Below, one piece after another: positions 1-15,205 of a stretch of 24,873 nt of DNA. Where the stretch lies: positions 1 through 24,873 of the forward strand of contig JAGAFT010000176.1 of NCBI GenBank assembly GCA_017627975.1, read 5' to 3'. The position numbers and the translations under genes were made by a program. The notes under the pieces were generated by a model that saw only the letters and a list, made by a program, of their open reading frames with translations, ran no database searches and had not been told where the DNA came from. Positions within the stretch are counted from its first letter, which is position 1, and each line of letters begins with the position of its first letter. Source of the DNA: Oscillospiraceae bacterium (GTDB taxonomy: Bacteria; Bacillota_A; Clostridia; Oscillospirales; Oscillospiraceae).

Positions 1-96
1 CGGGGCGACATAGTCGTATTCGTCGGCGACAATCGCTTCGCCCTGTTCTACTTCGACCTCATAGGTTTTTCCGTGCAGGGTGATTCTGTATTTCAT
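1..96 (-). CDS. Biotin/lipoyl carrier protein of a sodium-pump decarboxylase (5' part only)
   Basis: Only the first 32 codons are in the window; the gene runs off the left edge. The N-terminus starts MKYRITLHGKTYEVEVE, which is the usual opening of the small biotin carrier (gamma/delta) subunits of oxaloacetate and methylmalonyl-CoA decarboxylases. The biotinylated lysine motif would lie beyond the edge, so biotinylation is inferred from family and context. The ATG overlaps the OadG stop codon (ATGA), which implies translational coupling. It is the last visible gene of the minus-strand operon. An OadB-like membrane subunit would be expected next but cannot be seen. The carrier would shuttle the carboxyl group from the divergently encoded OadA-like enzyme to the membrane pump. 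Confidence 0.8.
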   Translation of the reverse strand, partial: MKYRITLHGKTYEVEVEQGEAIVADEYDYVAP

Positions 97-440
97 TCGT
101 GATGGTCCCCCTTGATTTCTTTAATAGAGAGAAACTGCAGCTGGTTCAGCGGAATCTGGGTGGTCTCGGCGACGATGGCCATGATCATCGCGGCGTCTCT
201 CGGATTGGTGTCCCAGAGCTTCAGCTCACGGGTGTACTTCGGACCGGGCTTCTCCTCTTTTACGGGAGCAGCTTCGGCAGCAGGAGCCGGAGCCGCAGCG
301 GCAGCGGACAAAGCGGCCTTCTTCTCGGCCGAATCGCCGACGGCGGTCATGATCTTGATGATGGCCATCAGCAGAATCAGCGCGAAGAACACCACCAGCA
401 GCCCCGTCACCGAGTACAGGCAGGCATCTCCAAACGTCAT
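93..440 (-). CDS. OadG-family sodium-pump decarboxylase gamma subunit
   Basis: This 115-residue membrane anchor protein fits the OadG family. One N-terminal transmembrane helix (about residues 9-31) is followed by an alanine/proline-rich linker (about 43-60, the usual flexible arm) and a C-terminal soluble part beginning near the NPRDAAMIMAIV segment. Known OadG proteins tether the carboxyltransferase subunit to the membrane beta subunit. The start is the ATG at 438-440, which has a GGAGG SD inside the end of the upstream hydro-lyase gene and overlaps its TGA as ATGA. A second ATGA overlap joins it to the carrier protein. The tight coupling places the hydro-lyase and the decarboxylase in the same pathway. 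No OadB is visible, because it would lie beyond the left edge. Confidence 0.85.
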   Translation of the reverse strand: MTFGDACLYSVTGLLVVFFALILLMAIIKIMTAVGDSAEKKAALSAAAAAPAPAAEAAPVKEEKPGPKYTRELKLWDTNPRDAAMIMAIVAETTQIPLNQLQFLSIKEIKGDHHE

Positions 441-2257
441 GGTTTTTCCTCCAGTTCCTTCAGGATCGGCCGCGGATCGGTGATCCGGCCGGTCAAGGCG
501 GAGGCGGCGATGGTTGCGGGACTCCCGAGATAGATCTTGCTGCTGGCCGGGCCCATGCGGCCGAGGAAGTTGCGGTTGTTGGTGGCGAGGATGACCTCGT
601 CTTCTCCGACGACACCGCCGCCGCGGCCCTGGCAGAGGCTGCAGTAGGGCATAGTGACCATGGCGCCGGCCTCGGCAAAGATCTGCATGTAGCCGAGCTC
701 GATGCATTTTTTATAGATCTCTTTTGTGGCACATGTCACGAGGAACTTCACATTTGCGGGCACATGGTGACCCTTCAGGATCTTCGCTGCGATCTGCATG
801 TCCTCGAGGCGGCCGTTGGTGCAGCTGCCCAGGAAGATCTGGTTGACCGGGGTGCCGATGTATTCCGTCACCGGGTGGACGTTGTCCACAAACTGCGGCA
901 CCGCCAGGTTCGGGACGAAGTCCTCGGCCTTGTAGTGCAGCACCTGTTCATAGCACTCGTCCGGTCCGATGGTCATCCAGGCCACGTCCTCGGGATCCAC
1001 GCCGCTGTAGGCACAGGTCTTGGCGTCGGGGGCAAAGAGGCCGACCTTCGCGCCGCATTCCACCGCCATGTTGGAGATGCAGATTCTCGCGTCCATGCTC
1101 ATGGCGTCCACCGCCGTGCCGCAGAATTCGAGGGAGCGGTAGGTTCCGCCGTTGGCCGTCAGGTCGCCCAGCACGCGCAGGATGATGTCCTTGGACATGA
1201 CACCCTCGGGCAGCACGCCGTCGATCTGGATCTTGATGGCGGAGGGGACGCGGACCCACATCTCGCCTCTGCCCAGGGCCGCCGCCATCTCGGTATAGCC
1301 GACGCCGGTGGAGAAGCAGCCCACCGCGCCGTAGGTGGTGGTGTGGCTGTCGGTGACGAAGATGACGTTGCCGGGCTTGGCATAGCGGCGTTCGGGGATC
1401 AGCTGATGGCCGATGCCCTCGCCGATGATGTGCGTACCGAAGTGGTATTCATCCACCAGGGTACAACCGGAGCGGAAGGATTCGGGATCGTCGAACATGA
1501 CGCAGGGCATCTGGTGGTCGTCGATGACGCCGGCGGTCTCGGGATGGGCGACTTCGGTATAGTGCATGCCGCGGAGCTTGCGCAGCACGGGACCGGTGTA
1601 CACGTCCAGGACGAAGAGCCTCGTGGGCTGGGCCATGACGATGTCGCCGGGGCGCAGGGACGCCGAGTGGGTGTTGCGCATGAGGATCTTCTCGGCAAGG
1701 GTGTGCTCGCCGACATAGTCGGGCTCGGGCGGCAGGGGCTTTTTCTCCTTCGCCTCGCCCCGGGCCTTTGCCTCGTTCTCCTGCTCACAGGCCTTCACAA
1801 GGCCGCCCGCCTCGACGATCTCGAGGAGGTTGTCGGGGATCTTCGGGATGGGATATTCCTTCCCGTCAAACTCGACGCAGAGCTTTTCGAGGTCCACGGT
1901 GACATGGTCGCCGTTCTGGACATGCTTGTAGAGCTCGTCGTTTTCCAGCAGGAGCATGCCGTTGTTGTAGGAGTTGCGGAAGAAGATGCGGGCGAAGCTC
2001 GGCGCGATGACGCAGCGGATGCCCGCCACCTTCATGGCCTCGGGGGCCATCTCGCGGGAGGAGCCGCAGCCGAAGTTCGGTCCGGCGACGATGATGTCGC
2101 CCTGCTGAATCTGGGCCGCGAGATCCGGGTACAGCGGCTCAAAGATGTGCTTGATCATCTCTTCCATCGGAAGACCGAGGATCTGGGTCGGCGCAATGAT
2201 ATCGGTGTCGATGTCCTTGCGCATCAGCCATACGCGGCCGGAGAATCTTTTTTCCAT
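437..2257 (-). CDS. Fused LeuD-LeuC aconitase-superfamily hydro-lyase
   Basis: The 606-residue protein joins both halves of a 3-isopropylmalate dehydratase-like enzyme in reversed order. The small swivel domain comes first (residues 1-155; GCGSSRE at 63-69). A charged linker (about 156-185) follows, and then the large domain (186-606) with DSHT at 303-306, the Fe-S cysteines C479, C539 and C542, and NRNF at 561-564. All visible catalytic motifs are intact, so it should be an active [4Fe-4S] hydratase/isomerase. AcnB also carries its swivel domain N-terminally, but the HEAT-like domain of AcnB is absent here. The substrate loop after DIDTD reads APTQILGLP instead of the YLRx-type loop of LeuD and homoaconitase, so leucine synthesis is unlikely. 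The 2,3-dimethylmalate dehydratase-like branch is a possible relative. The start is the ATG at 2255-2257, with a GAGAGGTG SD just after the upstream stop. Confidence 0.85.
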
Positions 2258-2269
2258 CTCTTACACCTC

Positions 2270-3391
2270 TCAGTTCGCAGCGGGGCAGACATAGCCCGCA
2301 ATGGCGCTTTCCATGGCGGTGGCGGCGCTGCAGAGCATGGTCGGGGCGTCACCCTCGCCGTTGCAGTTGGGGCAGGCGCGGCTGCCGGCGGAAAGGACGG
2401 TGTCCTTGGCATCCACAAGGCCTTGGCTGTGGGCGTAGCAGGCGGAGCAGCCCTGGTTCATCACCAGCGCGCCGGCGTCCATGAACTGGGCGATGAGGCC
2501 CTCGTTTGCCGCCTGGATGTAGACATCCGTAGAGGCAAAGGCCACAAGCGTGCGCACCTTGCGCTGGACCCGGCGGCCCTTGATGACCGCGGCGGCAGCG
2601 CGCAGGTCTTCGATACGCCCCTGAGAGCAGCCGCCGATGAAGACCGATGTCACCGGGATCTCCTTCAGCTCTGCGGCCGGGACCGTGAGTCGGAAGTCAT
2701 TGGGGCCTGCCACCATGGGCACGACCTCGTCCAGCTTCAGGACCGCTGTCGGCCAGTCACAGCGCTCTTCCTCCAGCGCGGCGTCACAGCCCGAGAGGCT
2801 CAGCAGCTGGAAGAAGGCGAGTTTCTCGCTGCCCTCCGGCACGTCGCCCGAGACCAGGACCAGCTTTCCCGTGGTGTCGCCCAGAAGGCCGAGGGCAGCG
2901 ATGGCCGCGTCCTTGGCGCAGACAGGGGCCTTGAGCGCGCCCTCCAGCCGCAGGTGTAGCTTTTCGGGGGCGGACAAGCTGATTTCGCCGCGGACGATGG
3001 CTTCGGCCAGCTCCTCGGGGCTGAGCTTCACCGCCAGCACGCCGCAGGCGCCGTAGACTCTGCCGTAATCGCCGCAGTGGGCGACGACCTGGCCGGGTTT
3101 GACGATCTTTTCCAGCATCAGCTGGTAGTTGGTTCCGTAGCCGTTAAACAGCTCACAGCCCCGCTCGGTGGCAAAGCGAATCAGCTGCTTCTGCCACTCG
3201 GCATGCGCTTCGCTGCCGCAGGGGGTCTCATGGTCGATAAAGACCTTGACTTTTTTTGCATCGGGAAGGGCCCTGTCCCCCAGGAGGGACGGAACGGTTT
3301 TAGCCGCTCCGTCCGTGAGGACAAAGTAATCCGGTTTCAGGGTCAGCGCCGTACCGGGAGCCGCTTCCAAGACAGTCGGAATGGTGTTCAT
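2270..3391 (-). CDS. Degenerate aconitase/LeuC-like protein
   Basis: The 373-residue protein has the outline of an aconitase large domain: IDHETP at 52-57, GGCSQGR with C255, and CSAC with C315/C318. The three cluster cysteines are therefore kept. The DSHT active-site motif is replaced by GDYG (107-110). The HQ of the G-x-G-H-Q segment is replaced by NYQ (88-90). The C-terminal NRNF-x-GR stretch has become SRACPNCNG, which adds a cysteine pair (C340, C343). It has no swivel domain. It starts at the ATG at 3389-3391 (SD GAGAGGAGA) and ends 12 bp before the LeuDC fusion. It may be a non-catalytic partner or stabiliser of the fusion, or an enzyme with different chemistry. No function is assigned. 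Confidence 0.75.
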   Translation of the reverse strand: MNTIPTVLEAAPGTALTLKPDYFVLTDGAAKTVPSLLGDRALPDAKKVKVFIDHETPCGSEAHAEWQKQLIRFATERGCELFNGYGTNYQLMLEKIVKPGQVVAHCGDYGRVYGACGVLAVKLSPEELAEAIVRGEISLSAPEKLHLRLEGALKAPVCAKDAAIAALGLLGDTTGKLVLVSGDVPEGSEKLAFFQLLSLSGCDAALEEERCDWPTAVLKLDEVVPMVAGPNDFRLTVPAAELKEIPVTSVFIGGCSQGRIEDLRAAAAVIKGRRVQRKVRTLVAFASTDVYIQAANEGLIAQFMDAGALVMNQGCSACYAHSQGLVDAKDTVLSAGSRACPNCNGEGDAPTMLCSAATAMESAIAGYVCPAAN

Positions 3392-3424: not shown

Positions 3425-6400
3425 TCAGGCCTGGCCTGCCAGTCTCTTGTACTTGGCGTAGCGGTGATTGGTGAACTTCTCCGCCTCGGCGAAGAGCTGT
3501 TCTGCGCGCTCGGGGAAGGTGCGGGTCAGGGAGGCAAAGCGAACCTCACCCATCATGTACTCACGCAGCTTGCCGTTGGGCTCGCCGGAGTCGAGCTGGA
3601 ACGGGTTCTCTCCCGCGTCCTCGCGATCCGGGTTGTAGCGCCACAGCGGCCAGTAGCCGCAGTCCGTGGCGGCCTTTTCCTCGTCCATGGCTTTGGACAT
3701 GCCCTTGGAAAGGCCGTGGTTGATGCAGGGGGCGTAGGCGATGACGATGGACGGGCCGTTGTAGGCCGCCGCTTCCTTCAGCGCCTTGATGGCGTGCTCG
3801 GGGTTGGCGCCGAGGTTAATCTGCGCCACATAGACATAGCCGTAGTTGGAGAGGATCAGGCCGAGGTCTTTCTTGGCCGTCGCCTTGCCGGCTGCGGCAA
3901 ACTGGACGGAGGCGCCGATCGGGGTGGCCTTGGAGGCCTGTCCGCCGGTGTTGGCATAGAGCTCGTTGTCCAGGACCAGGACGTTGAGGTCAAGGCCCGA
4001 GGCCATGACGTGGTCCAGGCCGCCGTAGCCGATGTCGTAGGCCCAGCCGTCGCCGCCCACCATCCAGACGGACTTTTTGGTAAGCGCATCCTGGCGGTCA
4101 CGCAGGAAGCGGATATCCTCGCTGTCTTCGCTGGTATGCCGAAGCATGTGGCGGACCTCGTCGGAGACCTCGCCGGTCTTCTCCACGTTGTCGCCGGCAT
4201 CCAGCCACGCGCTCAGGGCGTTGATGAGGTGCTTGTCGGCGCTGACCTCCAGGACCTTGCGGGCATGGGCTTTCATCTGCTCGCGGATCTGGTCGTCGGA
4301 GAGGCGGATGCCCAGGGCGAACTCGGCGTTGTTTTCAAACAGGGAGTTGGAGAAGGCCGGGCCGAAGCCGCGCTTGTTGACGGTCATCGGGAAGCTCGGC
4401 GTGGAGAAGCCGTAGGCCTGGGAGCAGCCGGTGGCGTTGGCCACATACATCCGGTCGCCGAAGAGCTGGGTCAGGAGCTTCACATAAGGCGTCTCGCCGC
4501 AGCCGGGGCAGGCGCCGTTGAACTCATACAGGGGCTGCTCATACTGGCTGCCCTTGGCGGAGAAGCGGGACATCGGGTTCTTTTTCTCGGAAAGCGTCAG
4601 GCAGTAATCGAAGTTATTTTGCTCGGCGCGGACCTCGTCCAGCGGGACCATCTTCAGGGCCTTCTCCTTGGACGGGCAGACATTCACGCAGCTTCCGCAG
4701 CCCTGGCAGTCCAGCACGCCGACCTGGATGCGGTAGCGGTAGTTCTCAAAGCCCTTGCCCAGAGCCTTCTTCGTGACGCAGGACTCGGGAGCACTGGCGG
4801 CTTCCTCTTCCGTGAACAGGAAGGGACGGATCGCCGCGTGCGGGCAGACCAGGGAGCAGCGATTGCAGCCGATGCACTTGTCCGCATCCCAGACGGGGAC
4901 GTTGTCGGCCACACCGCGCTTTTCAAAGCGGGCGGTATCGGTCGGGAAGACGCCGTCGGCGTAGGGCATCATGGTGCTCACCGGGATGTCGTCGCCCTTG
5001 GCGCTGTTCATCGGGATCAGCACGTCGCTCACGAAGTGGGGAAGATTTGCATCCGGCGTTTTCACATCGTCCTTCAGCTCCGCCCACTCGGCCGGAACCT
5101 CGATCTTCACGACGTTCTCAAGACCGCGCTCGATGGCGGCAAGGTTCATGTTCACGATCTTCTCGCCCTTGCGGGAGAAGGTCTTGACGGCCGCTTTCTT
5201 CATATAGTCTTCCGCCTCGTCGATGGGCAGCACGCCCGCGAGCTTGAAGAAGGCTGCCTGCAGCACAGTGCTGGTGCGGTTGCCGAGTCCGACCTCGGCG
5301 GCGATGCCGGTGGCGTCGATGGTGTAGAAGTTGATCTTCCGCTCAGCCAGGAGGCGCTTGGCACGGTTCGGCAGATTCGCCATCAGCTCTTCGCCTTTCC
5401 AGTGGGTGTTCAGCAGGAAGATGCCGCCCGGCTTCACTTCGCTCACGACATCGAAGGTCTGAATGTAGCTCTGCTTGTGGCAGGCGACAAAGTCCGCCAT
5501 GGTGACATAGTAGGAAGAACGGATGGGCTCGTGGCCGAAGCGCAGGTGGCTTCTCGTGAGGCCGCCGGACTTCTTCGCGTCATACTGGAAGTAGGCCTGG
5601 ACATACTGGTCTGTGTTGTCGCCGATGATCTTGCAGGAGTTCTTGTTGGCGCCGACCGTGCCGTCGGAACCCAGGCCCCAGAACTTGCAGGAGATGATGG
5701 ACTTTCCGGAGGTGACGATGTTCTCGCCCACCGGCAGGGAGTGATGGGTCACATCATCGTTGATGCCGACGGTAAAGTGGTTCTTCTGCTCGCCGGCCAT
5801 GTTGTCATAGACCGCCTTGAGCTGGGCCGGGGTGGTGTCCTTGGAGCTCAGGCCGTAGCGGCCGCCCAGCAGGGTGAGGCTGCGTCCGGACTCATACAGC
5901 GCCGCGCTGACATCCTCAAACAGCGGCTCGCCCAGGGAGCCGGGCTCCTTGGTGCGGTCCAGAGCCGTGAGCACTTTGCAGGTCTCCGGGATAGCGGAGA
6001 GGAAGTGCTTCAGAGAGAAGGGGCGGTACAGGCGAACCTGGATCATGCCAACCTTTTCGCCGCGCTCGGTGAGGTAATCCACGACTTCCTTCAGCGCTTC
6101 GCAGACCGAACCCATGGCGATGATGACGCGCTCGGCGTCGGGTGCACCGTAATAATTAAAGAGCTGATAGTCGCGTCCGGTGAGGGCAGACATCTTCTCC
6201 ATATACTCTTCCATAACGGCCGGGAAGGCATCGTAGGTCTCATTCACGCTCTCGCGGAACTGGAAGCAGATGTCGTCCGTGCCGTTGATGTTGCGGATGG
6301 TGGGATGCTCGGGGTTCAGCGCGCGGTCACGGAACTTTTTCAGCTCTACATGATCCAGCATCTTCTCCAGATCGGCGTAATCGAGGACCTCGATCTTCTG

Positions 6401-6934
6401 GATCTCATGGCTGGTGCGGAAGCCGTCAAAGAAGTGCTGTACCGGAAGATGCCCCTTGATGGCGGCGAGGTGGGCCACCGCACCCAGGTCCATGCACTCC
6501 TGCACGCTGGAGGAGGTCAGCTGCGCCCAGCCGGTCTGACGACATGCCATAACGTCCATCTGATCGCCGAAGATCGAGACGTTTCCGGCCGCGACAGAGC
6601 GGGCCGCGACATGCATGACGGCAGGGAGCTTCAGGCCCGCGATGCGGTACATCGGCGGGATCATCAGCATCAGGCCCTGGGCCGAGGTGAAGGTCGTCGC
6701 GAGAGAGCCGGCCTCCAGCGCGCCCTGGACGCCGGCGATGGCGCCGGACTCGGCCTGCATCTCGACCAGACGGACCGGTGTGCCGAAGATGTTCTTCTTA
6801 CCGTGGGCTGCCCACTCGTCCACATGATTGGCCATGGGGCTGGACGGGGTGATGGGATAGATGGTTGCGACTTCTGTAAATGCGTAGCTGGCGTAAGCGG
6901 CGGCCTCATTGCCGTCCATGGATTTTCTTACCAT
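3425..6934 (-). CDS. nifJ: Pyruvate:ferredoxin (flavodoxin) oxidoreductase, single chain
   Basis: The 1169-residue protein is a full-length homodimeric-type PFOR that converts pyruvate and CoA to acetyl-CoA, CO2 and reduced ferredoxin. The pyrimidine-binding domain starts with IYPITPSSP (25-33). The two-cluster ferredoxin domain shows CIGCNRC (C687, C690, C693, then C697) and CQGCGSC (C743, C746, C749, then C753). The TPP domain begins with CPGCGE (C809, C812) and carries GDG at 961-963. The ATG at 6932-6934 is chosen because a GGAGGAGA SD lies 9 bases upstream; an upstream in-frame TTG overlaps that SD. It is the first gene of the minus operon, about 150 nt downstream of the predicted transcription start. 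Placing PFOR in the operon ties the pathway output to pyruvate. A paralogue acting on another 2-oxoacid cannot be excluded. Confidence 0.93.
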   Translation of the reverse strand: MVRKSMDGNEAAAYASYAFTEVATIYPITPSSPMANHVDEWAAHGKKNIFGTPVRLVEMQAESGAIAGVQGALEAGSLATTFTSAQGLMLMIPPMYRIAGLKLPAVMHVAARSVAAGNVSIFGDQMDVMACRQTGWAQLTSSSVQECMDLGAVAHLAAIKGHLPVQHFFDGFRTSHEIQKIEVLDYADLEKMLDHVELKKFRDRALNPEHPTIRNINGTDDICFQFRESVNETYDAFPAVMEEYMEKMSALTGRDYQLFNYYGAPDAERVIIAMGSVCEALKEVVDYLTERGEKVGMIQVRLYRPFSLKHFLSAIPETCKVLTALDRTKEPGSLGEPLFEDVSAALYESGRSLTLLGGRYGLSSKDTTPAQLKAVYDNMAGEQKNHFTVGINDDVTHHSLPVGENIVTSGKSIISCKFWGLGSDGTVGANKNSCKIIGDNTDQYVQAYFQYDAKKSGGLTRSHLRFGHEPIRSSYYVTMADFVACHKQSYIQTFDVVSEVKPGGIFLLNTHWKGEELMANLPNRAKRLLAERKINFYTIDATGIAAEVGLGNRTSTVLQAAFFKLAGVLPIDEAEDYMKKAAVKTFSRKGEKIVNMNLAAIERGLENVVKIEVPAEWAELKDDVKTPDANLPHFVSDVLIPMNSAKGDDIPVSTMMPYADGVFPTDTARFEKRGVADNVPVWDADKCIGCNRCSLVCPHAAIRPFLFTEEEAASAPESCVTKKALGKGFENYRYRIQVGVLDCQGCGSCVNVCPSKEKALKMVPLDEVRAEQNNFDYCLTLSEKKNPMSRFSAKGSQYEQPLYEFNGACPGCGETPYVKLLTQLFGDRMYVANATGCSQAYGFSTPSFPMTVNKRGFGPAFSNSLFENNAEFALGIRLSDDQIREQMKAHARKVLEVSADKHLINALSAWLDAGDNVEKTGEVSDEVRHMLRHTSEDSEDIRFLRDRQDALTKKSVWMVGGDGWAYDIGYGGLDHVMASGLDLNVLVLDNELYANTGGQASKATPIGASVQFAAAGKATAKKDLGLILSNYGYVYVAQINLGANPEHAIKALKEAAAYNGPSIVIAYAPCINHGLSKGMSKAMDEEKAATDCGYWPLWRYNPDREDAGENPFQLDSGEPNGKLREYMMGEVRFASLTRTFPERAEQLFAEAEKFTNHRYAKYKRLAGQA

Positions 6935-7064
6935 AATAATTCTCTCCTCCAAGTTCTGTGACCTGCACGAATAAATTCGGAATCCGCCGGGGAATCCTTT
7001 TGATAAAACCGGAACCGTGAATTATGAAAAATGAAAATGATCTCTGTCCTTAAGGTTGCATAGC

Positions 7065-7448: not shown

Positions 7449-8888
7449 GTGAGCAAGCTTACCGCCATTCATACCCCGGAAGAGATCGAACTCTTCTATA
7501 ATTATAAGGCACCCGCAAAACCGATTAAGTTCTGCAGCGTCGACCTCCGTGACGGCCAGCAGTCCCTGATCGCCACCCGGATGACCACCGACGATGTTGT
7601 GAAGCTGATCACCAAGATGGACAAAGTCGGTTTCGACAGCATCGAGATGTGGGGCGGCGCCACCTTCGACGTCATGCTCCGCTATCTGAAGGAAGACCCC
7701 TTTGACCGGCTGCGCCGCTGCAAGGCCGCCGCGCCGAACACCACGCTGCGCATGCTGCTGCGCGGACAGAACATCGTAGGCTACCACCAGTATTCCGACG
7801 ATGTGGTGGAACACTTTGTCAACTGTGCCGCCGAGGCCGGGATCGACGAGTTCCTGATCTTCGACGGTCTGATGGACACCCGCAACTGCCAGACGGCGAT
7901 CCGCTCGGCACTGAAGACCGGAAAGAAGGTCTCCGCGAACCTGCTCTACACCACCAGCCCCGCGCACAACGACAAGCTCTACGTTGATGTCGCAAAGCGC
8001 TATGTCGATATGGGCGTCCAGGCCATTCACATTGAAGATATGGCCGGCATGAAGGATCCCGTTTCCGTGTTCCTCACGGTCCACGCGTTGAAAGAAGCGC
8101 TGGATGTCCCCGTTCACTATCAGGCCCACTGCACCGGCGGCATGTCCGACATGGGTTACTGGGAAGCCGTCCGGGCCGGCGCCGACGTCATCGACTGTGA
8201 CTTCTCGGCCCTCTGCAACGGCACCGCCCATCCCCCGCTGGAGAGCATGGTCGTGGCCCTGGCCCAGACCCCCTATGCGGCTGAGATCGACCTCGACCTG
8301 GTGGCCGAGATTAACGCCGACCTCAAGGCCATGCTTCCGAAATATCAGGAGTTCATGAGCCAGTTCACCGGCGTCGACATCTCGGTCCTGCAGCACCAGA
8401 TCCCCGGCGGCATGCTCTCGAACATGGAGAGCCAGCTCAAGCAGATGAACGCCTACGACCGTCTGGAAGAGGTCCTGGAAGAGACCGCCCGGGTCCATGA
8501 GGAGTTCGGCTATCCCCCGCTGGGCACCCCCTTCAGCCAGATCGTCGGCACCCAGGCCACGATGAACGTCATCGCCGGCGAGCGCTACAAGACCATCCCC
8601 AGAGAGAGCAAGACCTATATGCTCGGCAAGTACGGCGCCTTCCCCGCTCCGGTGGATCCCGAGGTTCAGAAGAAGATCATCGGCGACGAGGAACCCATCA
8701 CCTGCCGCCCGGCCGACCTCATTGAGCCGGAATGGGAGAAGTTCAAGGCCGAAATCGGCGATCTCGCCGAGTCGGATGAGGACATCTGCATGTATGCGCT
8801 GTTCCCGCCCGTGGTCCGCAGCTGGCTTGAAGAGCGGAAGAAACGGAAGGAACTGACCATGAAATATAAGATTGAAAGGATCGACTGA
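7449..8888 (+). CDS. OadA/5S-like carboxyltransferase with altered metal site
   Basis: The 479-residue protein matches the carboxyltransferase subunits of oxaloacetate decarboxylase (OadA) and Propionibacterium transcarboxylase 5S along its whole length: LRDGQQSLIATRM, MLLRGQN, IPGGMLSNMESQL, SQIVGTQA and the C-terminal RPADLIEPEWEK. It has no biotin domain, so it should use the separate carrier encoded on the other operon. In the family the metal is held by Asp, a carboxylated Lys in KDMA, and the two His of HxH. Here D35 and H227 remain, but the Lys is E196 (IEDMAG) and the first His is Q225. RDAHQ is also RDGQQ. The substrate may therefore not be oxaloacetate. The start is the GTG at 7449, preceded by GAAAGGAGA. 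It is the first gene of the plus operon. Confidence 0.85.
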   Translation: MSKLTAIHTPEEIELFYNYKAPAKPIKFCSVDLRDGQQSLIATRMTTDDVVKLITKMDKVGFDSIEMWGGATFDVMLRYLKEDPFDRLRRCKAAAPNTTLRMLLRGQNIVGYHQYSDDVVEHFVNCAAEAGIDEFLIFDGLMDTRNCQTAIRSALKTGKKVSANLLYTTSPAHNDKLYVDVAKRYVDMGVQAIHIEDMAGMKDPVSVFLTVHALKEALDVPVHYQAHCTGGMSDMGYWEAVRAGADVIDCDFSALCNGTAHPPLESMVVALAQTPYAAEIDLDLVAEINADLKAMLPKYQEFMSQFTGVDISVLQHQIPGGMLSNMESQLKQMNAYDRLEEVLEETARVHEEFGYPPLGTPFSQIVGTQATMNVIAGERYKTIPRESKTYMLGKYGAFPAPVDPEVQKKIIGDEEPITCRPADLIEPEWEKFKAEIGDLAESDEDICMYALFPPVVRSWLEERKKRKELTMKYKIERID

Positions 8889-8890
8889 GC

Positions 8891-9271
8891 ATGAAACAGA
8901 CCGATTCGGACAAGATCCGCGAGGGTCAGGAGATTCTGGCGGTTCTGAAGGAGCAGCGCGGCGGCGCCATCCTTCCGATCCACAAGAAAATGGCCAACGA
9001 CCCGAAACTGCTCCAGGCCTTCAGCCAGCAGTTCAGGATCTGCAAACAGGAAATCTCCCACATCCCGCCCCAGTACATGGAGCTGATGCTCATGATGATG
9101 GGAGCCGCGGCCGGAAACGCCGTCACCATCCGCGAGCACGGCGAACTCGCCCTGAAGAAGGGCGCCACCCCGGACGAGGTCGGCGAAGCCCTCCGCCTGA
9201 TCTTCTTCTACTTCGGCGCCTCGGCGCTGATCCCCGCCCTGGAGCTCTTTGAGGAGCTGGAAGAGAACTGA
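8891..9271 (+). CDS. Carboxymuconolactone decarboxylase/AhpD-fold protein without the redox cysteines
   Basis: The 126-residue all-helical protein resembles the CMD/AhpD family in its core: GAAAGNAVTIREHGELALKK followed by GATPDEVGEALR. The reactive members carry a Cys-x-x-Cys-x-x-x-His arrangement in this helix. Here only the His (in REHG) remains, and the only cysteine (RICKQ) lies outside the motif, so AhpD-type peroxidase chemistry is unlikely. The ATG follows the OadA-like stop by two bases and has GAAAGGA as SD, so the two are translationally linked. A supporting role for the carboxyltransferase, such as a second small subunit or a decarboxylase on a lactone or keto acid, is possible but not shown. 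Confidence 0.65.
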   Translation: MKQTDSDKIREGQEILAVLKEQRGGAILPIHKKMANDPKLLQAFSQQFRICKQEISHIPPQYMELMLMMMGAAAGNAVTIREHGELALKKGATPDEVGEALRLIFFYFGASALIPALELFEELEEN

Positions 9272-9350: not shown

Positions 9351-10337
9351 ATGAAGAAACTCGTTTCCCTGATGGTCTGCCTCGTCCTGGTCTTCGCCCT
9401 GGCAGCCACCCCGGCTTTCGCCGCCAACGACTACAGCTACTGCGTCCACGATGCCTCCACCTACTGCGACGAGGCAATGGAAATGTTTTCCCAGCTCCTG
9501 AACGAGCGCTCCGACGGCCGTTTCAACGCCACCAGCTACACCCCGGGCACCATGGGCAACGAAACCGAGCTGCTGGAGAGCGTTCTCATGGGCGACATGA
9601 CCTTCTCCACCCCGGCCGACACCCTGATTTTCCAGTCCCTGAACCTGTACGACTGGGCCTCTCTGCCCGGCCTGGTCACCAGCGTGGAAGAAGCTCAGAA
9701 GTACATCCTCAGCCCCGACGGCTTTATGGGCCAGATGATGAACGAGGAATTCTACTTTGACGGTGCCGGTGTGGTCCGCCTGGCCGGCATGGACAACGGC
9801 TTCCGCGTCATCGCCTCCAAGAAGCCCGTTGAGACCCTCAAGGACATCCAGGGTCTGAAGACCCGCGTTGCCAACGTCCCCCTGATGAAGGGTCTGTATG
9901 ACGGTGCCGGCGTTCAGTCCACCATCGTCGACTCCTCCGAGGTTATGACCGCCCTGCAGCAGGGCACCGTGGACGCCGTTGAGAACAGCTTCTTCAACCT
10001 CGCCACCCGCGGCTTTATCGACATGTGCCCCTACGTCCTCGCCATCAACTACATCTACTCCTCCCGTTCCATCATCTGCAACGCCGAGTGGTTCGACGCT
10101 CTGTCCGCCGAGGATCAGGAGCTTGTCCGCCAGTGCGCGCAGGAAGCCGCCGACTGGGCCAATGAGCAGACCCTGGCCGAGTATGAGCAGTATGTCAACG
10201 ACGAGCGCTGGACCGTCTATGAGCTCAACGACGAGCAGAAGGAAGTCTTCCAGGCCTCCGCTGACAAGCTCTGGGAAGGCGCCCGCAAGGACTGCGACCC
10301 CGCCATCCTTGACGCTCTGACCGCCGGCAAAGAGTAA
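9351..10337 (+). CDS. dctP: TRAP transporter solute-binding protein (DctP family)
   Basis: The 328-residue extracytoplasmic binding protein would capture the substrate for the DctQM membrane components encoded next. The signal peptide is clear: MKK, a hydrophobic stretch to about residue 20, and AFA/AND cleavage near 24-25. TRAP hallmarks include the GNETELLESVLMGDM region (about 69-83) and GLKTRVANVPL with R172, which aligns with the carboxylate-binding arginine of DctP/SiaP proteins. The conserved arginine indicates a carboxylic acid ligand, but the exact ligand cannot be read from sequence. The SD AAAGGAG precedes the ATG. Hairpins on both sides of the gene suggest that its message is made more abundant or more stable than those of its neighbours. 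Confidence 0.9.
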   Translation: MKKLVSLMVCLVLVFALAATPAFAANDYSYCVHDASTYCDEAMEMFSQLLNERSDGRFNATSYTPGTMGNETELLESVLMGDMTFSTPADTLIFQSLNLYDWASLPGLVTSVEEAQKYILSPDGFMGQMMNEEFYFDGAGVVRLAGMDNGFRVIASKKPVETLKDIQGLKTRVANVPLMKGLYDGAGVQSTIVDSSEVMTALQQGTVDAVENSFFNLATRGFIDMCPYVLAINYIYSSRSIICNAEWFDALSAEDQELVRQCAQEAADWANEQTLAEYEQYVNDERWTVYELNDEQKEVFQASADKLWEGARKDCDPAILDALTAGKE

Positions 10338-10359
10338 TCCCAAAACCTGACTGACCGAT

Positions 10360-10386
10360 ACATCCCCCGCCTTCGACGGGGGATGT
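10360..10386 (+). other. Strong intercistronic stem-loop between dctP and dctQ
   Basis: ACATCCCCCG (10360-10369) pairs perfectly with CGGGGGATGT (10377-10386) around a 7-base loop. No U-tract follows. Such structures after binding-protein genes commonly stabilise the upstream mRNA segment or reduce read-through, giving excess binding protein over permease. Confidence 0.75.
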
Positions 10387-10420
10387 GTTCCCCAAACATA
10401 CGGGAAAGGATTTATGATCT

Positions 10421-10948
10421 ATGTATCGTAATTTTGTGAAGAAGCTCAACGCCTTCAATGAAGGTTTCATCAAGGTGGAAAAGCTGATCTGCGACGTGCT
10501 GTTTGTCTTTCTGATTGTCTGCCTGGTGGCGCAGGTCTTCTACCGCTTCGTGCTCAAGTCCCCCGCCGGCTGGACCGAGGAATTCGCGCGTTACTCCTTT
10601 ATCTTCGTCATGTATCTCGCCTGCGGCTATACCCTGCACTACGGCAAGCATGTGGACATGAACCTGCTCGACACCTTCCTGGACAAGACAAAGAATCCGA
10701 AGCGGGCCTATTACATCATGTCAAAGGTCACCAACGTCACGAACATCGCCTTCTGCGCCTACTTCATGTACATCTTCTGGCCCTATCTGATGAAGCTCAA
10801 GAAGCTCGGGCGCACCATCGTCTCCGCGCCGATCCCCATCTGGGTGATTCAGAGCTCGGTCTTCATCGGCTTTGCGCTGATGCTGTGGCATTCTCTGGTC
10901 AAGCTGCTCCAGCCCTATGAGGGCGACGACGCAGCGGCCGCGAAGTAA
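10421..10948 (+). CDS. dctQ: TRAP transporter small permease subunit (DctQ family)
   Basis: The 175-residue protein has four predicted membrane helices (about 21-44, 57-75, 101-122 and 140-162). It carries the DctQ signature around AGWTEEFARYSFIFVMYLACG, where the W-x-E-E-x-x-R segment follows the first helix. DctQ pairs with DctM in the cytoplasmic membrane to form the Na+-driven importer. It starts 83 bp after dctP, beyond the intercistronic hairpin, with GGAAAGGA as SD, and ends 18 bp before dctM. Confidence 0.88.
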   Translation: MYRNFVKKLNAFNEGFIKVEKLICDVLFVFLIVCLVAQVFYRFVLKSPAGWTEEFARYSFIFVMYLACGYTLHYGKHVDMNLLDTFLDKTKNPKRAYYIMSKVTNVTNIAFCAYFMYIFWPYLMKLKKLGRTIVSAPIPIWVIQSSVFIGFALMLWHSLVKLLQPYEGDDAAAAK

Positions 10949-10966
10949 GGAAAGGAGGAAAACAAT

Positions 10967-12289
10967 ATGGCTGCATTATCCCCGATGGGAGCATTTTTCC
11001 TGTTCCTCATCATGTTCATCGGCACCTGTTTCCTCCTGAAGGTCAACGTGGCCTTCGGCGTCGGCATCGGCTGCATCACGCTGCTGATCTTCGGTCACTA
11101 TGCCAACACCCCGTTCCTGCAGGCCTCCTTCTCCGCCATGGACAGCTTCCCCTTCCTTGCGGTCCCGACCTTCATCCTGGCCGGCGTACTCATGGAACAC
11201 AGCGGCATCTCCTCGGCGCTGATCGACTGGTGCGACGCTCTCATGGGCAAGGTCCGCGGCAGCGTCGGCGCGGTCACCACGCTGGCCTGCATGGCCTTCG
11301 GTCTGCTGACCGGCTCCGCCACCGCCACCCTCTCCGCCATCGGCAAGATCATGATCGAAGAGATGGCAAAGCGCGGCTATAAGAAGTCCTATGCCGCCGC
11401 TCTCGCCGCTTCCACCAGCTTCCTCGGCATCCTGATCCCGCCCAGCACCCCCGGTATCCTCTATGCCCTCACCGCCGGCCTCTCCATCACCAAGGTCTGG
11501 ATGGCGACGGTTGTTCCCGGTCTCGCCATCGGCTTCGGCACGATCTTTCTCAACTGGTGGATCGTCGGCCGCAAGGAGCCGAAGAAGGAGATTGCCGGTG
11601 GCGGCGGTTTCCGCGGCTACATCGTGAACGTCGGCCATCAGACCTGGAACTCCCTGGCGGCCCTGATCATGCCCATCATCATCTTCGGCGGCATCTACTC
11701 CGGCATCTTCACCCCGACCGAAGCCGGTGCGGTGTGCGTGGTCTACGGCACGATCTTCTACTTCATCAAGTACTATAAGAACAAGAAGCAGGGCAAGACC
11801 TTCAAGCAGATTCTCGACGACTCCACCATTCAGACGGCCTCCATCGGCCTGCTGATCGCGCTGTCCCTCTGCGCCGGCCGTGTCATCACCATGTGCGGCG
11901 TCTCCCAGGCGCTGACCGACTGGATGCTGGCCCACGTACACAGCAAGTGGACCTTCCTGATCCTCTACAACGTGGTTCTGCTCCTCTTCGGCATGTTCCT
12001 GAACCAGAACGCGACGATCCTGATCCTGACCCCGCTGCTGCTCGAGACGGCGGAAGCCTACGGCATCAGCGCCATGGAATTCGGCACCATCATGCTGGTC
12101 GCCTGCTGCTACGGCGGTCTGACCCCGCCCTTCGCCACCTACAACTTCATCGCCGCCGGCCTCTCCGGCGAGAGCTTCGGCTCCGTCACCAAGCAGAGCC
12201 TGCCCTTCCTGGCCCTGGGCTATGTCATCATTCTCATCATGTGCGTCTTCCCGGGTGTCTACATGTGGCTGCCCAACATGGTCGGCTGA
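10967..12289 (+). CDS. dctM: TRAP transporter large permease subunit (DctM family)
   Basis: The 440-residue polytopic protein matches DctM. Signature parts are FPFLAVPTFILAGVLMEHSGI (near 60-80), the GSATATLSAIGKIM helix, SFLGILIPPSTP with the paired prolines, and the C-terminal GGLTPPFATYNF. DctM is the transport channel and carries the Na+ sites. AAAGGAGG precedes the ATG. It is the last gene of the plus operon and is followed by a clear terminator. With DctP and DctQ it makes a complete tripartite importer, which fits a locus for catabolism of an external carboxylate. Confidence 0.92.
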   Translation: MAALSPMGAFFLFLIMFIGTCFLLKVNVAFGVGIGCITLLIFGHYANTPFLQASFSAMDSFPFLAVPTFILAGVLMEHSGISSALIDWCDALMGKVRGSVGAVTTLACMAFGLLTGSATATLSAIGKIMIEEMAKRGYKKSYAAALAASTSFLGILIPPSTPGILYALTAGLSITKVWMATVVPGLAIGFGTIFLNWWIVGRKEPKKEIAGGGGFRGYIVNVGHQTWNSLAALIMPIIIFGGIYSGIFTPTEAGAVCVVYGTIFYFIKYYKNKKQGKTFKQILDDSTIQTASIGLLIALSLCAGRVITMCGVSQALTDWMLAHVHSKWTFLILYNVVLLLFGMFLNQNATILILTPLLLETAEAYGISAMEFGTIMLVACCYGGLTPPFATYNFIAAGLSGESFGSVTKQSLPFLALGYVIILIMCVFPGVYMWLPNMVG

Positions 12290-12446: not shown

Positions 12447-13466
12447 ATGTCTACCATTTACGATATTGCCAAGCTCAGCGAGACCTCCGCCGCCACCGTT
12501 TCCTATGTTCTCAACGGCCGCGGGGAGGAGAAGCGCATCTCCCGGCCGACGCAGGAGCGGATTCTGGCCGTTGCCCAAAGGCTCAACTACCGGCCGAATG
12601 TGACCGCACGCCAGCTCAAATCACCGGCCAGTGCCACGATTCGGATTGCCGCCTTCTGGCCGGAGTTTTACTTTGAGCAGTCCCTGGTCTCGGCCATGCG
12701 CGCCATCAAAACGGTCTCCCATCTCTACACGGAGGGCCTTGAGGTCAGCGTCCACTTCTTCACCCCCGGGAAGCTCGCCGATGTCTGGGACAAGATGTCC
12801 CCGGTCAGCTTCAACGGGGTAATCCTCGCCGGCGCCTCCATGGAGGATCTGGCCCATGTGGCCGGACGCCCGCGTGTGGTGCCGGTCGTGCTGGTCAACC
12901 GCCGCTATGAGGGTTTCCCCAGCGTCAGCATCGACCACGAAGCGGCCGGAAAACTCGCCTGCGAGCTCGCTTTCCAGCGCGGCGGCCAGTCCGTCTGCAC
13001 CGTCTGGGACAGCCGCTTCCATGTCGCGACGAACCTTCGCCGCACCGCCTTCACAAAGCGGGCCGAAGAACTCGGTCTGGAGCTGAGCGAGAGCCAGTTT
13101 ATGTGCGAGGGCTCCTCGGAAGACGGCTATGAGCTCGGACGCAGCCTGATTCAGAAGGGGCAGCTGAAGAAAGTGCTCTACTGCAACAACGAGAGCGTCT
13201 CCCGCGGCCTGCTCACCGCGATGAACGAAGCCGGCATCCGGGTCGGCGAGGAGCTCTATCTCTTCACGGCCAACAACGGGCCGGACGCCTTCTGCCGCTA
13301 CATGACGCCGTCGGTCACGACCATCGATTTGAGGATGCAGGAGGTCTTTGAACAGGGACTGAAGCTGCTGCTCGGCATCATCAGCCGCCGGGAGGACCCG
13401 GATACCGTCACCACCATCTCCCCGCGCTATGTCTATCGCGAGTCCATGCCGGAGCTGATGGAGTAA
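12447..13466 (+). CDS. LacI/GalR-family transcriptional regulator
   Basis: The 339-residue protein has an N-terminal LacI helix-turn-helix (TIYDIAKLSETSAATVSYVLNG, residues 3-24), a hinge helix near RPNVTARQLKS, and a periplasmic-binding-protein-like effector domain ending in the TTIDL segment. It is the obvious candidate for the repressor that binds the TTAATCGATTAA-type sites at both catabolic promoters and at its own promoter. Although LacI members usually sense sugars, its position here argues for an organic acid or a pathway intermediate as effector. The ATG at 12447 has AAGAGGTG as SD. The gene ends at a bidirectional terminator shared with the facing hydrolase gene. Confidence 0.9.
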   Translation: MSTIYDIAKLSETSAATVSYVLNGRGEEKRISRPTQERILAVAQRLNYRPNVTARQLKSPASATIRIAAFWPEFYFEQSLVSAMRAIKTVSHLYTEGLEVSVHFFTPGKLADVWDKMSPVSFNGVILAGASMEDLAHVAGRPRVVPVVLVNRRYEGFPSVSIDHEAAGKLACELAFQRGGQSVCTVWDSRFHVATNLRRTAFTKRAEELGLELSESQFMCEGSSEDGYELGRSLIQKGQLKKVLYCNNESVSRGLLTAMNEAGIRVGEELYLFTANNGPDAFCRYMTPSVTTIDLRMQEVFEQGLKLLLGIISRREDPDTVTTISPRYVYRESMPELME

Positions 13467-13552: not shown

Positions 13553-15205
13553 TTATATTCCCATGATGCAGCCGTCGCCGCGCGGATCCGTGCCTCCGAC
13601 CAGAACCCGGCAGCTCTCATCCGTGTACTGGATGATCTGTCCTCTTCCAAAAGGTCTATCGTTGTAGCTGCCGGAAAAGGCATCCTGCACCGTGATCCGA
13701 TGCCCTTTGTCACGAAGCGCGGCAATTGTTTTTTCCGGATAATGCGACTCCAGATCAAAGTTCAGCCCACTGCTCCAGCAGAAGCGGGGCGCATCCAGGG
13801 CGTTCTGGGGGCTCATGTGAAAGTCGATCATGTTCATGGCGACCTGGAGGTGCCCCTGCGGCTGCATGAAGCCGCCCATGACCCCGAAGGGCCCCACCGG
13901 GAGACCGTCTTTCATAAGGAAGCCGGGGATGATGGTCTGGTACGGGCGTTTGTGCGGGCCCGCCTGATTGACGTGTCCTTCCTCCAGCGTGAAAGTCGCG
14001 CCGCGGGACTGTAGGACAAGCCCATACTCGGGAATAATAACCGCCGAACCGAAGGGATTGTAGCAGGACTGGATCATGGAGATCATATTTCCGCGGGTAT
14101 CCGCCGCACAGAAGTAACAGGTATCGCATTTCGGAGGATTCCCCGCGCGAAAGTCCTGCGCCCGGTCAGGCCGGATCAGTCTGCGGCGCGCCTCTGCATA
14201 CTCCCGGTTCAGCAGCATCCGGCAGCTGACCTCATTCATATAATCAGGGTCTCCGACATATTTCAGGCTGTCGGCAAAGGCAAGCTTGATGGCCTCCATC
14301 TGAAGATGGACCGTCTCGGGTTTTCCGAAGTCTTCCGGAGAGAAAGAATAAGCATCCAGCAGATTCAACGCCATCAGCGCAGTGATGCCCTGTCCGTTCG
14401 GGGGCAGCTCGCAGACCTCATAGCCGTGATACGTCACCCGCAGCGGGTCATGCGTAACGGGAGAGAAGCCCTGAAAGTCTTTCTCGCTCCAGCGGCCGCC
14501 GCCTTTCTTCGATTCCCGGAGGATCGCCTGCGCAATGCGTCCGCCCTCATAGAGCGAAGCCCCCTCCGTCTCGATGATTTCCCGCAGGAAGGCCGCCATA
14601 GCGGGGTGCTTTACCAGCTGTCCCGGAGCCGGGGCGGCACCGCCCGGAAAGAACTCCCGGTCAAAGTTCCGGGCTTCCTCTTCGGTGAGCCTCGGCGTCA
14701 GCCGGTCGCGCCAAGTCCGGAAGCTGCCCTGGACATAGGGTGTAATGGGATGGCCCTTCTCCGTCAGCTCGATGGCCGGCTGTGCCACCTCTGCCAGAGA
14801 CATGCTGCCGTAGTCTTTCAGAAGCCGGATCCATCCTGCGACGCAGCCCGGGAGCGTGGTGCTGTCCCAGCCGCCGGCAGGGATTCTGCCGGAATAACGC
14901 CGGGAGCGCAGATACTCTTCCGTCAGTTCCCAGGGGGAAAAGCCGGAGGAACTCATTCCGTGAAGCTTCCCTCCGGACCAGATGATGGCAAAATTGTCGC
15001 TCCCAAAGGTCGTGGCCGCCGGCTCTACCACCGGCAGCGCAATGGCGACGGCCACACAGGCGTCAATGGCGTTGCCGCCCTGTTCCAGGATCTTTATCCC
15101 GGCTGCGGTTGCCAGCGGGTGCGAAGAGGCCACCATGGCATTCGCGGCATAGAGGTCCCTCCGCCGGGACGGAAAGCGATACGCATAGGGGTCGTAGCTT
15201 ATCAT
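13553..15205 (-). CDS. Gamma-glutamyltransferase-family Ntn hydrolase, cytoplasmic type
   Basis: The 550-residue protein follows the GGT fold: MVASSHPLATAAGIKILEQG and GGNAIDACVAVA near the N-terminus, PPNGQGITAL in the middle, and GGFMQPQGHLQVAMNMIDF near the C-terminus. GGT precursors cleave themselves before a threonine that becomes the nucleophile. The equivalent here is T362 in CDTCYFCAAD, flanked by cysteines where other members have H/Y-S/A-V. There is no signal peptide, unlike secreted glutathione hydrolases, which resembles the YwrD-like and acylase-like branch. Substrates could be gamma-glutamyl or other amides. The ATG at 15203-15205 has an AGGAGG SD. It is monocistronic and faces the LacI regulator gene, so a link to the catabolic locus is not supported. 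Confidence 0.85.
   Translation of the reverse strand: MISYDPYAYRFPSRRRDLYAANAMVASSHPLATAAGIKILEQGGNAIDACVAVAIALPVVEPAATTFGSDNFAIIWSGGKLHGMSSSGFSPWELTEEYLRSRRYSGRIPAGGWDSTTLPGCVAGWIRLLKDYGSMSLAEVAQPAIELTEKGHPITPYVQGSFRTWRDRLTPRLTEEEARNFDREFFPGGAAPAPGQLVKHPAMAAFLREIIETEGASLYEGGRIAQAILRESKKGGGRWSEKDFQGFSPVTHDPLRVTYHGYEVCELPPNGQGITALMALNLLDAYSFSPEDFGKPETVHLQMEAIKLAFADSLKYVGDPDYMNEVSCRMLLNREYAEARRRLIRPDRAQDFRAGNPPKCDTCYFCAADTRGNMISMIQSCYNPFGSAVIIPEYGLVLQSRGATFTLEEGHVNQAGPHKRPYQTIIPGFLMKDGLPVGPFGVMGGFMQPQGHLQVAMNMIDFHMSPQNALDAPRFCWSSGLNFDLESHYPEKTIAALRDKGHRITVQDAFSGSYNDRPFGRGQIIQYTDESCRVLVGGTDPRGDGCIMGI

Follow-up and report, generated by a model that had tools for sequence, protein, structure and literature searches.

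Oxaloacetate decarboxylase alpha subunits (OadA), the 5S subunit of transcarboxylase and the carboxyltransferase (CT) domains of pyruvate carboxylase (PC) hold their catalytic metal with an aspartate, a carboxylated lysine and both histidines of an HxH motif. In a cryo-EM study of L. lactis PC, the carboxylysine is described as a metal ligand, and biotin, threonine and substrate are in contact; the metal ligands are H732, H734, R533, D534, carboxylysine 703 through its two oxygens, and one water, Arg606 binds the substrate, Thr867 and Ser870 contact biotin, and the funnel that docks the biotin carrier is the region corresponding to the PYC_OADA domain (PMC9581989). For oxaloacetate decarboxylase (OAD), another report proposes that lysine 178 of the active site receives the C4 carboxyl before biotin does (PMC2881705). 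Here we describe E-OadA, a 479-residue protein encoded at 7449..8888 on the forward strand of a 24,873-nucleotide stretch of Oscillospiraceae DNA (contig JAGAFT010000176.1, hereafter the window), in which this lysine is a glutamate, and a clade of related proteins that carry the same replacement. In the literature that we searched, which left subscription journals mostly out of reach, no description of a Glu-type OadA clade was found among the papers listed.

E-OadA is an OadA-type protein with an altered metal site

E-OadA is an OadA/5S/PycB-type carboxyltransferase that consists of an HMGL-like TIM barrel (PF00682, E-value 1.8e-17) and an intact C-terminal PYC_OADA domain (PF02436, E-value 1.5e-53), the domain pair of the OadA/PycB/5S family, without a biotin domain; it is 44-45% identical to characterised OadA and PycB proteins. 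Of the 21 NCBIfam models that match it, only the broad PycB domain model, at 615.9 bits, exceeds its cut-off, which is 402 bits. The cut-off of the oadA equivalog TIGR01108 is missed (572 against 756.5 bits, with 446 of 582 profile positions matched), in part because the biotin domain is absent; several Lys-type OadAs are as short as E-OadA, so this absence is normal.

At the metal site the aspartate (D35, codon GAC, 7551..7553) and the second histidine (H227, codon CAC, 8127..8129) are present, while Glu196 (codon GAA, 8034..8036) stands in place of the carboxylated lysine and Gln225 (codon CAG, 8121..8123) in place of the first histidine of HxH, all on the forward strand. The L. lactis PC residues listed above, from H732 to carboxylysine 703 and on through Arg606, Thr867 and Ser870, correspond to Q225, H227, R34, D35, E196, R105, T360 and S363. 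Compared with the V. cholerae OadA carboxyltransferase domain (2nx9), E-OadA shows both ligand changes together with RDAHQ to RDGQQ, FRVFDA to FLIFDG and valine to glycine before the catalytic threonine, and, unlike the 2nx9 system, it has a gene for a CMD-family protein as its neighbor. The same ligand changes separate it from the P. shermanii transcarboxylase 5S subunit (1rqb). The CT domains of two-subunit and single-chain PC (5ks8, 2qf7) resemble E-OadA in fold, in the catalytic threonine, in the biotin-contact serine positions and in RDG, but keep the lysine and both histidines. This set of residues had been read from the gene by the first-pass annotation, and phmmer alignments and a fold match confirm it; misalignment, which that annotation had allowed for as an explanation, is ruled out by the same two comparisons, and the residue assignment stands.

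Glutamate retains a negative charge at position 196. Among amidohydrolases, the CE9 group uses Glu/His/His, a precedent for glutamate as a TIM-barrel metal ligand (PMC12017989). E196 may bind the metal in E-OadA. Other amidohydrolases carry carboxylysine on the matching strand.

Glu196 defines a single clade within which residue 225 varies

Glutamate is found at position 196 in all of the best 120 of 7996 homologues scored, which are 54-99% identical to E-OadA. Residues were counted in 125 distinct Glu-type rows (the window included and four genome genes added) and 109 distinct Lys-type rows; the scans that yielded the Lys-type rows were seeded with Glu-family sequences, so those rows represent the closest Lys-type relatives of that family and are not randomly sampled. 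Rows were drawn from 119 of 136 loci; 15 of the 17 rowless loci are OadB, biotin-carrier or flanking stretches, and two loci (L051 and L078), Lys-type by motif, were left out as no RD[AG]xQ was found in them. D35 is present in all 123 Glu-type rows with letters at this position (two fragments miss the region) and H227 in 125 of 125. Residue 225, by contrast, is histidine in 87 of the 125 Glu-type rows and glutamine in 38, and glutamine also occurs there in 3 of the 109 Lys-type rows. The Lys-type OadAs of three loci (L046, L066 and L072; two Marinobacter and one gammaproteobacterial metagenome-assembled genome) have glutamine for the first histidine, in the motif HMQCH.

In a 141-row tree (101 Glu rows and 40 of the 46 Lys-type representatives), calculated with columns 37, 196 and 225 excluded, the Glu rows form one side of one branch with SH-aLRT support of 100. 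On this tree residue 225 changes at least 16 times, and 12 of these changes are forced by the starred branches; switching between histidine and glutamine within the Glu clade rules out Q225 as a clade marker. A second tree, with 20 Glu rows, 30 of the 40 Lys rows and a pyruvate carboxylase outgroup, recovers the Glu clade with 100/100 support and groups it with part of the Lys-type rows at 98/93; in this tree PycB_L162 is a long branch, and its lysine is read from the alignment. As the Glu clade is nested among Lys-type rows when rooted with PC, the aligned sequences indicate that the lysine-to-glutamate replacement occurred once within our sample. The first-pass annotation had treated the two replaced ligands as one feature and had suggested that the E/Q pair might mark a clade tied to LeuD-LeuC (LeuDC) fusions. 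The glutamate half of this proposal is borne out, since Glu196 defines the clade and a LeuDC gene accompanies it in the window and in all five other genomes described below; the glutamine half is not, as Q225 toggles with histidine and is not diagnostic.

The same annotation had argued against decay, and here too the family agrees. A non-catalytic or decaying paralogue might be suspected from the two changed ligand positions and from some neighboring LeuC-like and LeuB-like proteins that lack catalytic residues. The E-OadA reading frame is open, and a family that spans 54-99% identity and in which the Asp, His, Glu and Thr never vary rules out decay of E-OadA; loss of function across the group is thus a very improbable explanation.

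Catalytic positions are kept while residues around them change

All substrate Arg and Gln, catalytic Thr and biotin-contact Ser, Tyr and Asp positions are present in E-OadA. T360 is the counterpart of Thr882 of R. etli PC, the residue at which the T882A chain 3tw6 differs from 2qf7, and Y628 is a mutated CT residue of PC according to the title of 4jx6. The other R. etli PC residues in this comparison we take to be R548, Q552, D590, R621 and S885, and we likewise take D74 and Y112 of E-OadA to be biotin-contact Asp and Tyr positions. Among the Glu-type rows R34 and Q38 are found in 123 of 123 with letters, D74 in 124 of 124, and R105, T360 and Q364 in 125 of 125. One study describes Thr882 of R. 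etli PC as essential (PMC5895798).

Several positions separate the two groups. Position 136 is arginine in 109/109 Lys-type rows and leucine in 123/125 Glu-type rows; position 359 is valine in 109/109 and glycine or alanine in 124/125; position 140 is alanine in 102/109 and glycine (107/125) or isoleucine (13) in the Glu group; position 37 is histidine in 105/109 and glutamine in 123/123; and position 230 likewise differs. Gln37 is not absolute in the Glu clade, because the E-OadA of genome G1338, which lies outside these counts and has Glu196 and His225, reads RDGVQ. The predicted fold places residue 136 on the barrel strand 134-137, residue 140 right after this strand and residue 359 directly before the catalytic threonine. 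These group-specific changes by the active site suggest, in a ligand-free model, that the pocket of E-OadA is roomier and less basic and that its substrate differs from that of the Lys-type enzymes. The different carboxyl donor that the first-pass annotation had raised is thus made likelier by the V359 to G/A, A140 to G and R136 to L changes.

The conservation of R34, Q38, R105 and T360, the 44-45% identity to characterised enzymes and an adjacent pyruvate-type pyruvate:ferredoxin oxidoreductase (PFOR) gene would all fit an ordinary oxaloacetate decarboxylase alpha subunit in which glutamate is tolerated in place of carboxylysine, with substrate and reaction unchanged. The changes at 136, 140, 230 and 359 argue against this explanation, as do the presence of a Lys-type OadA alongside E-OadA in one genome (G001) and the constant linkage of E-OadA in the other genomes to LeuDC and a LeuC-like protein and not to OadB or OadG; we therefore regard it as clearly unlikely.

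E-OadA lies among relatives of leucine-pathway and OAD enzymes

Immediately downstream of E-OadA, starting 2 nucleotides past its stop codon, is the gene for the small CMD-family protein (8891..9271), which lacks an AhpD-type CxxC cysteine pair at the usual place. It is followed on the same strand by a TRAP transporter (9351..12289; DctP 9351-10337, DctQ 10421-10948 and DctM 10967-12289) and a LacI-family regulator (12447..13466). On the minus strand, the genes upstream of E-OadA run in the order PFOR (3425..6952; TIGR02176, 1737 bits), LeuC' (2270..3391), a LeuC-like protein of 373 residues with three cluster cysteines kept, LeuDC (437..2257), a fusion of the isopropylmalate/citramalate isomerase type, OadG, the OAD gamma chain (93..440), and the beginning of a probable gene for a biotin carrier (1..96). 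The OadG start overlaps the LeuDC stop, and the carrier start the OadG stop, each through ATGA. The 32 codons of the carrier start share 56% identity with the Biotin_lipoyl protein of an OAD operon (L156), and the biotin-lysine region would lie beyond the window. In three OAD loci (L151, L152 and L156) the gene right after a Lys-type OadA (KDMAG) is OadG, with OadB near; in the window LeuDC occupies the spot of that OadA, which leaves E-OadA as the sole carboxyltransferase in view. No 1.3S or 12S transcarboxylase partner was recognised in the window, and Ptb, Buk and LeuB are likewise not in view there, with OadG and the carrier start in their place.

Genome searches at 1e-201 gave five distinct Glu-type genomes. 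The samples overlapped, G001 and G976 being included once more as centers: the family of G001 yielded G001 and two others (3 of 250 genomes), an order sample and the genus of G976 each yielded G976 (1 of 394 and 1 of 4), and the family of G976 yielded G976 and G1338 (2 of 396). In all five (G001, G497, G498, G976 and G1338) genes for LacI, E-OadA and CMD diverge from genes for PFOR, LeuC', LeuDC, Ptb, Buk and a LeuB-like protein, and the CMD gene adjoins E-OadA as it does in the window. In G001 the LeuB-like gene lies between PFOR and LeuC', and Buk follows Ptb, with the contig ending within Buk. A 2HCT citrate-type symporter is found in four of the five clusters, G001 being without one. A co-occurrence comparison used 70 of 120 listed LeuC' entries, 51 of them on longest contigs of at least 3 kb; 10 of these 51 contigs had the same size as an E-OadA contig, against 0.29 expected with jittered lengths. 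The matches include a 328,692-base contig named Desulfovibrio sp., so the E-OadA/LeuC' link seems to extend past Clostridia.

The LeuB-like proteins of these clusters (L001 3594-4685, L125 4587-5696, L128 16156-17238, L141 5553-6644 and L158 1515-2663) are diverged. Three of the five were scanned with the leuB model (cut-off 353.2); G497 scored above it (362.6) and G001 (334.9) and G976 (299.4) below. The tyrosine that protonates the enol in LeuB after decarboxylation belongs to the R[DE]xxGGxY motif; all five solved LeuBs shown have this tyrosine, and the residue is F, L, F, L and L in G001, G498, G497, G976 and G1338. NQLH is present in five of five near the HGSAPD loop of LeuB, and use of NAD has possibly been altered or lost. 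Judged by these motifs, the proteins are probably a LeuB subfamily with altered chemistry. No further LeuB beyond the five clusters was found by tblastn in the collected loci, so a same-genome control LeuB was not available. LeuC' (~370 residues) keeps the three Fe-S cluster cysteines in 69 of 76 rows, the window included; two or three are lost in L001, L125, L128, L140 and L158, five of the seven exceptions, so details may vary between clusters of the window type and those of the G type. Among solved sequences LeuDC is closest to isopropylmalate/citramalate isomerase. The loop after DTD in its LeuD part, presumably the specificity motif site of LeuD-type proteins, is unusual, being APTQILGLP in the window (437-2257) and PGKRGTIP in L001 (659-2452). 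The cluster as a whole points to acid catabolism by enzymes that are related to, and have drifted from, those of the leucine pathway and of OAD.

A candidate biotin-linked reaction without a lysine relay

The retained substrate arginine, catalytic threonine and PYC_OADA domain and the carrier start, weighed with the changed metal site and pocket, lead us to favor, at about an even chance, a biotin-linked carboxyltransferase that acts on a bulkier beta-oxo acid and in which glutamate would serve as the metal-site carboxylate and no carboxyl would be relayed through lysine. E-OadA would act as the free alpha CT subunit of a biotin-linked, OAD-like decarboxylase. Glutamate would have replaced the carboxylated lysine once, offering the metal a carboxylate without a requirement for CO2, with D35 and H227 remaining ligands and the first histidine position becoming optional. 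The neighboring LeuDC, LeuC' and LeuB-like proteins would make a substituted oxaloacetate (a 2-oxo-3-carboxy acid with a C3 substituent), from which E-OadA would move the carboxyl straight to biotin at the Thr360/Ser363 site; the resulting 2-oxo acid would then pass through PFOR to an acyl-CoA and on to Ptb/Buk, while an OadB pump would decarboxylate the carboxybiotin. A fuller fermentation route, in which a LeuB-like protein lacking the tyrosine stops at the substituted oxaloacetate and Glu-type OadA decarboxylates it through biotin for Na+ pumping, conserving energy that LeuB would waste, is speculative and on balance unlikely; if true, it would be a case of biotin-dependent carboxyl transfer without any lysine carbamate. 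With glutamate in place of the Lys178 equivalent, the clade cannot relay a carboxyl through lysine, and a natural Glu clade with the Thr/biotin site largely kept offers a ready means of asking if the lysine carbamate relays the carboxyl or serves as a mere ligand.

A number of observations weigh against the biotin-linked proposal. The carboxylate carbon of glutamate is three side-chain atoms closer to the backbone than that of carboxylysine, so ligation would need a shift of the metal or backbone, or a bridging water. S363 is found in 106 of the 125 Glu-type rows and is replaced by alanine in 19, and Y112 in 116, with phenylalanine in 9. The altered nucleotide loop of the LeuB-like proteins makes their reaction unsure; the window holds no LeuB-like gene, and OadB is not in view there (it would fall past the left edge). 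The window OadG is 79-93% identical to the 119 others among the best 120 of 2262 OadG homologues and, resembling many common OadGs, is not specific to E-OadA. In the stretches around E-OadA in the five other genomes, tblastn at 1e-4 found no OadB, OadG or OAD-type biotin carrier, a threshold at which the poorly conserved OadG could be missed; the lone carrier match (34% identity) lies ~3 kb past the G976 cluster, just ahead of a biotin carboxylase gene. The proposal has to assume that E-OadA shares a carrier with the Lys-type OAD of its own genome. Carriers and OadB are present elsewhere in G001, G497 and G498, the three genomes searched. The proposal also gives no role to the CMD partner.

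This partner would find a place as a subunit if E-OadA were a biotin-free enzyme, in which Mg or Mn occupies a D/E/(Q or H)/H site that directly chelates a 2-oxo or 2-hydroxy acid and supports decarboxylation or retro-aldol cleavage, as in relatives of DmpG, HMG-CoA lyase and isopropylmalate synthase. The sequence of E-OadA is far closer to OadA than to such lyases; identity to DmpG-type 4-hydroxy-2-oxovalerate aldolase and HMGL-like lyases is ~17% over 319 residues, and these lyases have no PYC_OADA domain and another ligand set. The PYC_OADA domain retained in E-OadA, the catalytic threonine in 125 of 125 rows, the largely kept biotin-contact positions and an operon in the window that includes OadG and the carrier start all argue against a biotin-free enzyme, and the missing biotin domain is no point in its favor, being shared with short Lys-type OadAs; we consider it rather unlikely.

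Other searches and a further gene in the window

A looser class search at 1e-180 was insufficiently selective, matching 171 of 391 genomes. It returned 30 loci, 29 of them Lys-type and 1 Glu-type. A scan of public contigs with patterns common to Lys-type enzymes gave 80 loci, L001 being the only Glu-type one, and a viral-contig scan gave 2 loci. Plasmid tblastn gave 163 records, each below 60% identity, and residue 196 was read in four of the genes. OadG homologues in 394 genomes amounted to 10 matches at 1e-20 (46-55% identity). Facing the LacI gene in the window is a gene for a gamma-glutamyltranspeptidase family protein (13553-15205; PF01019, 421 bits).
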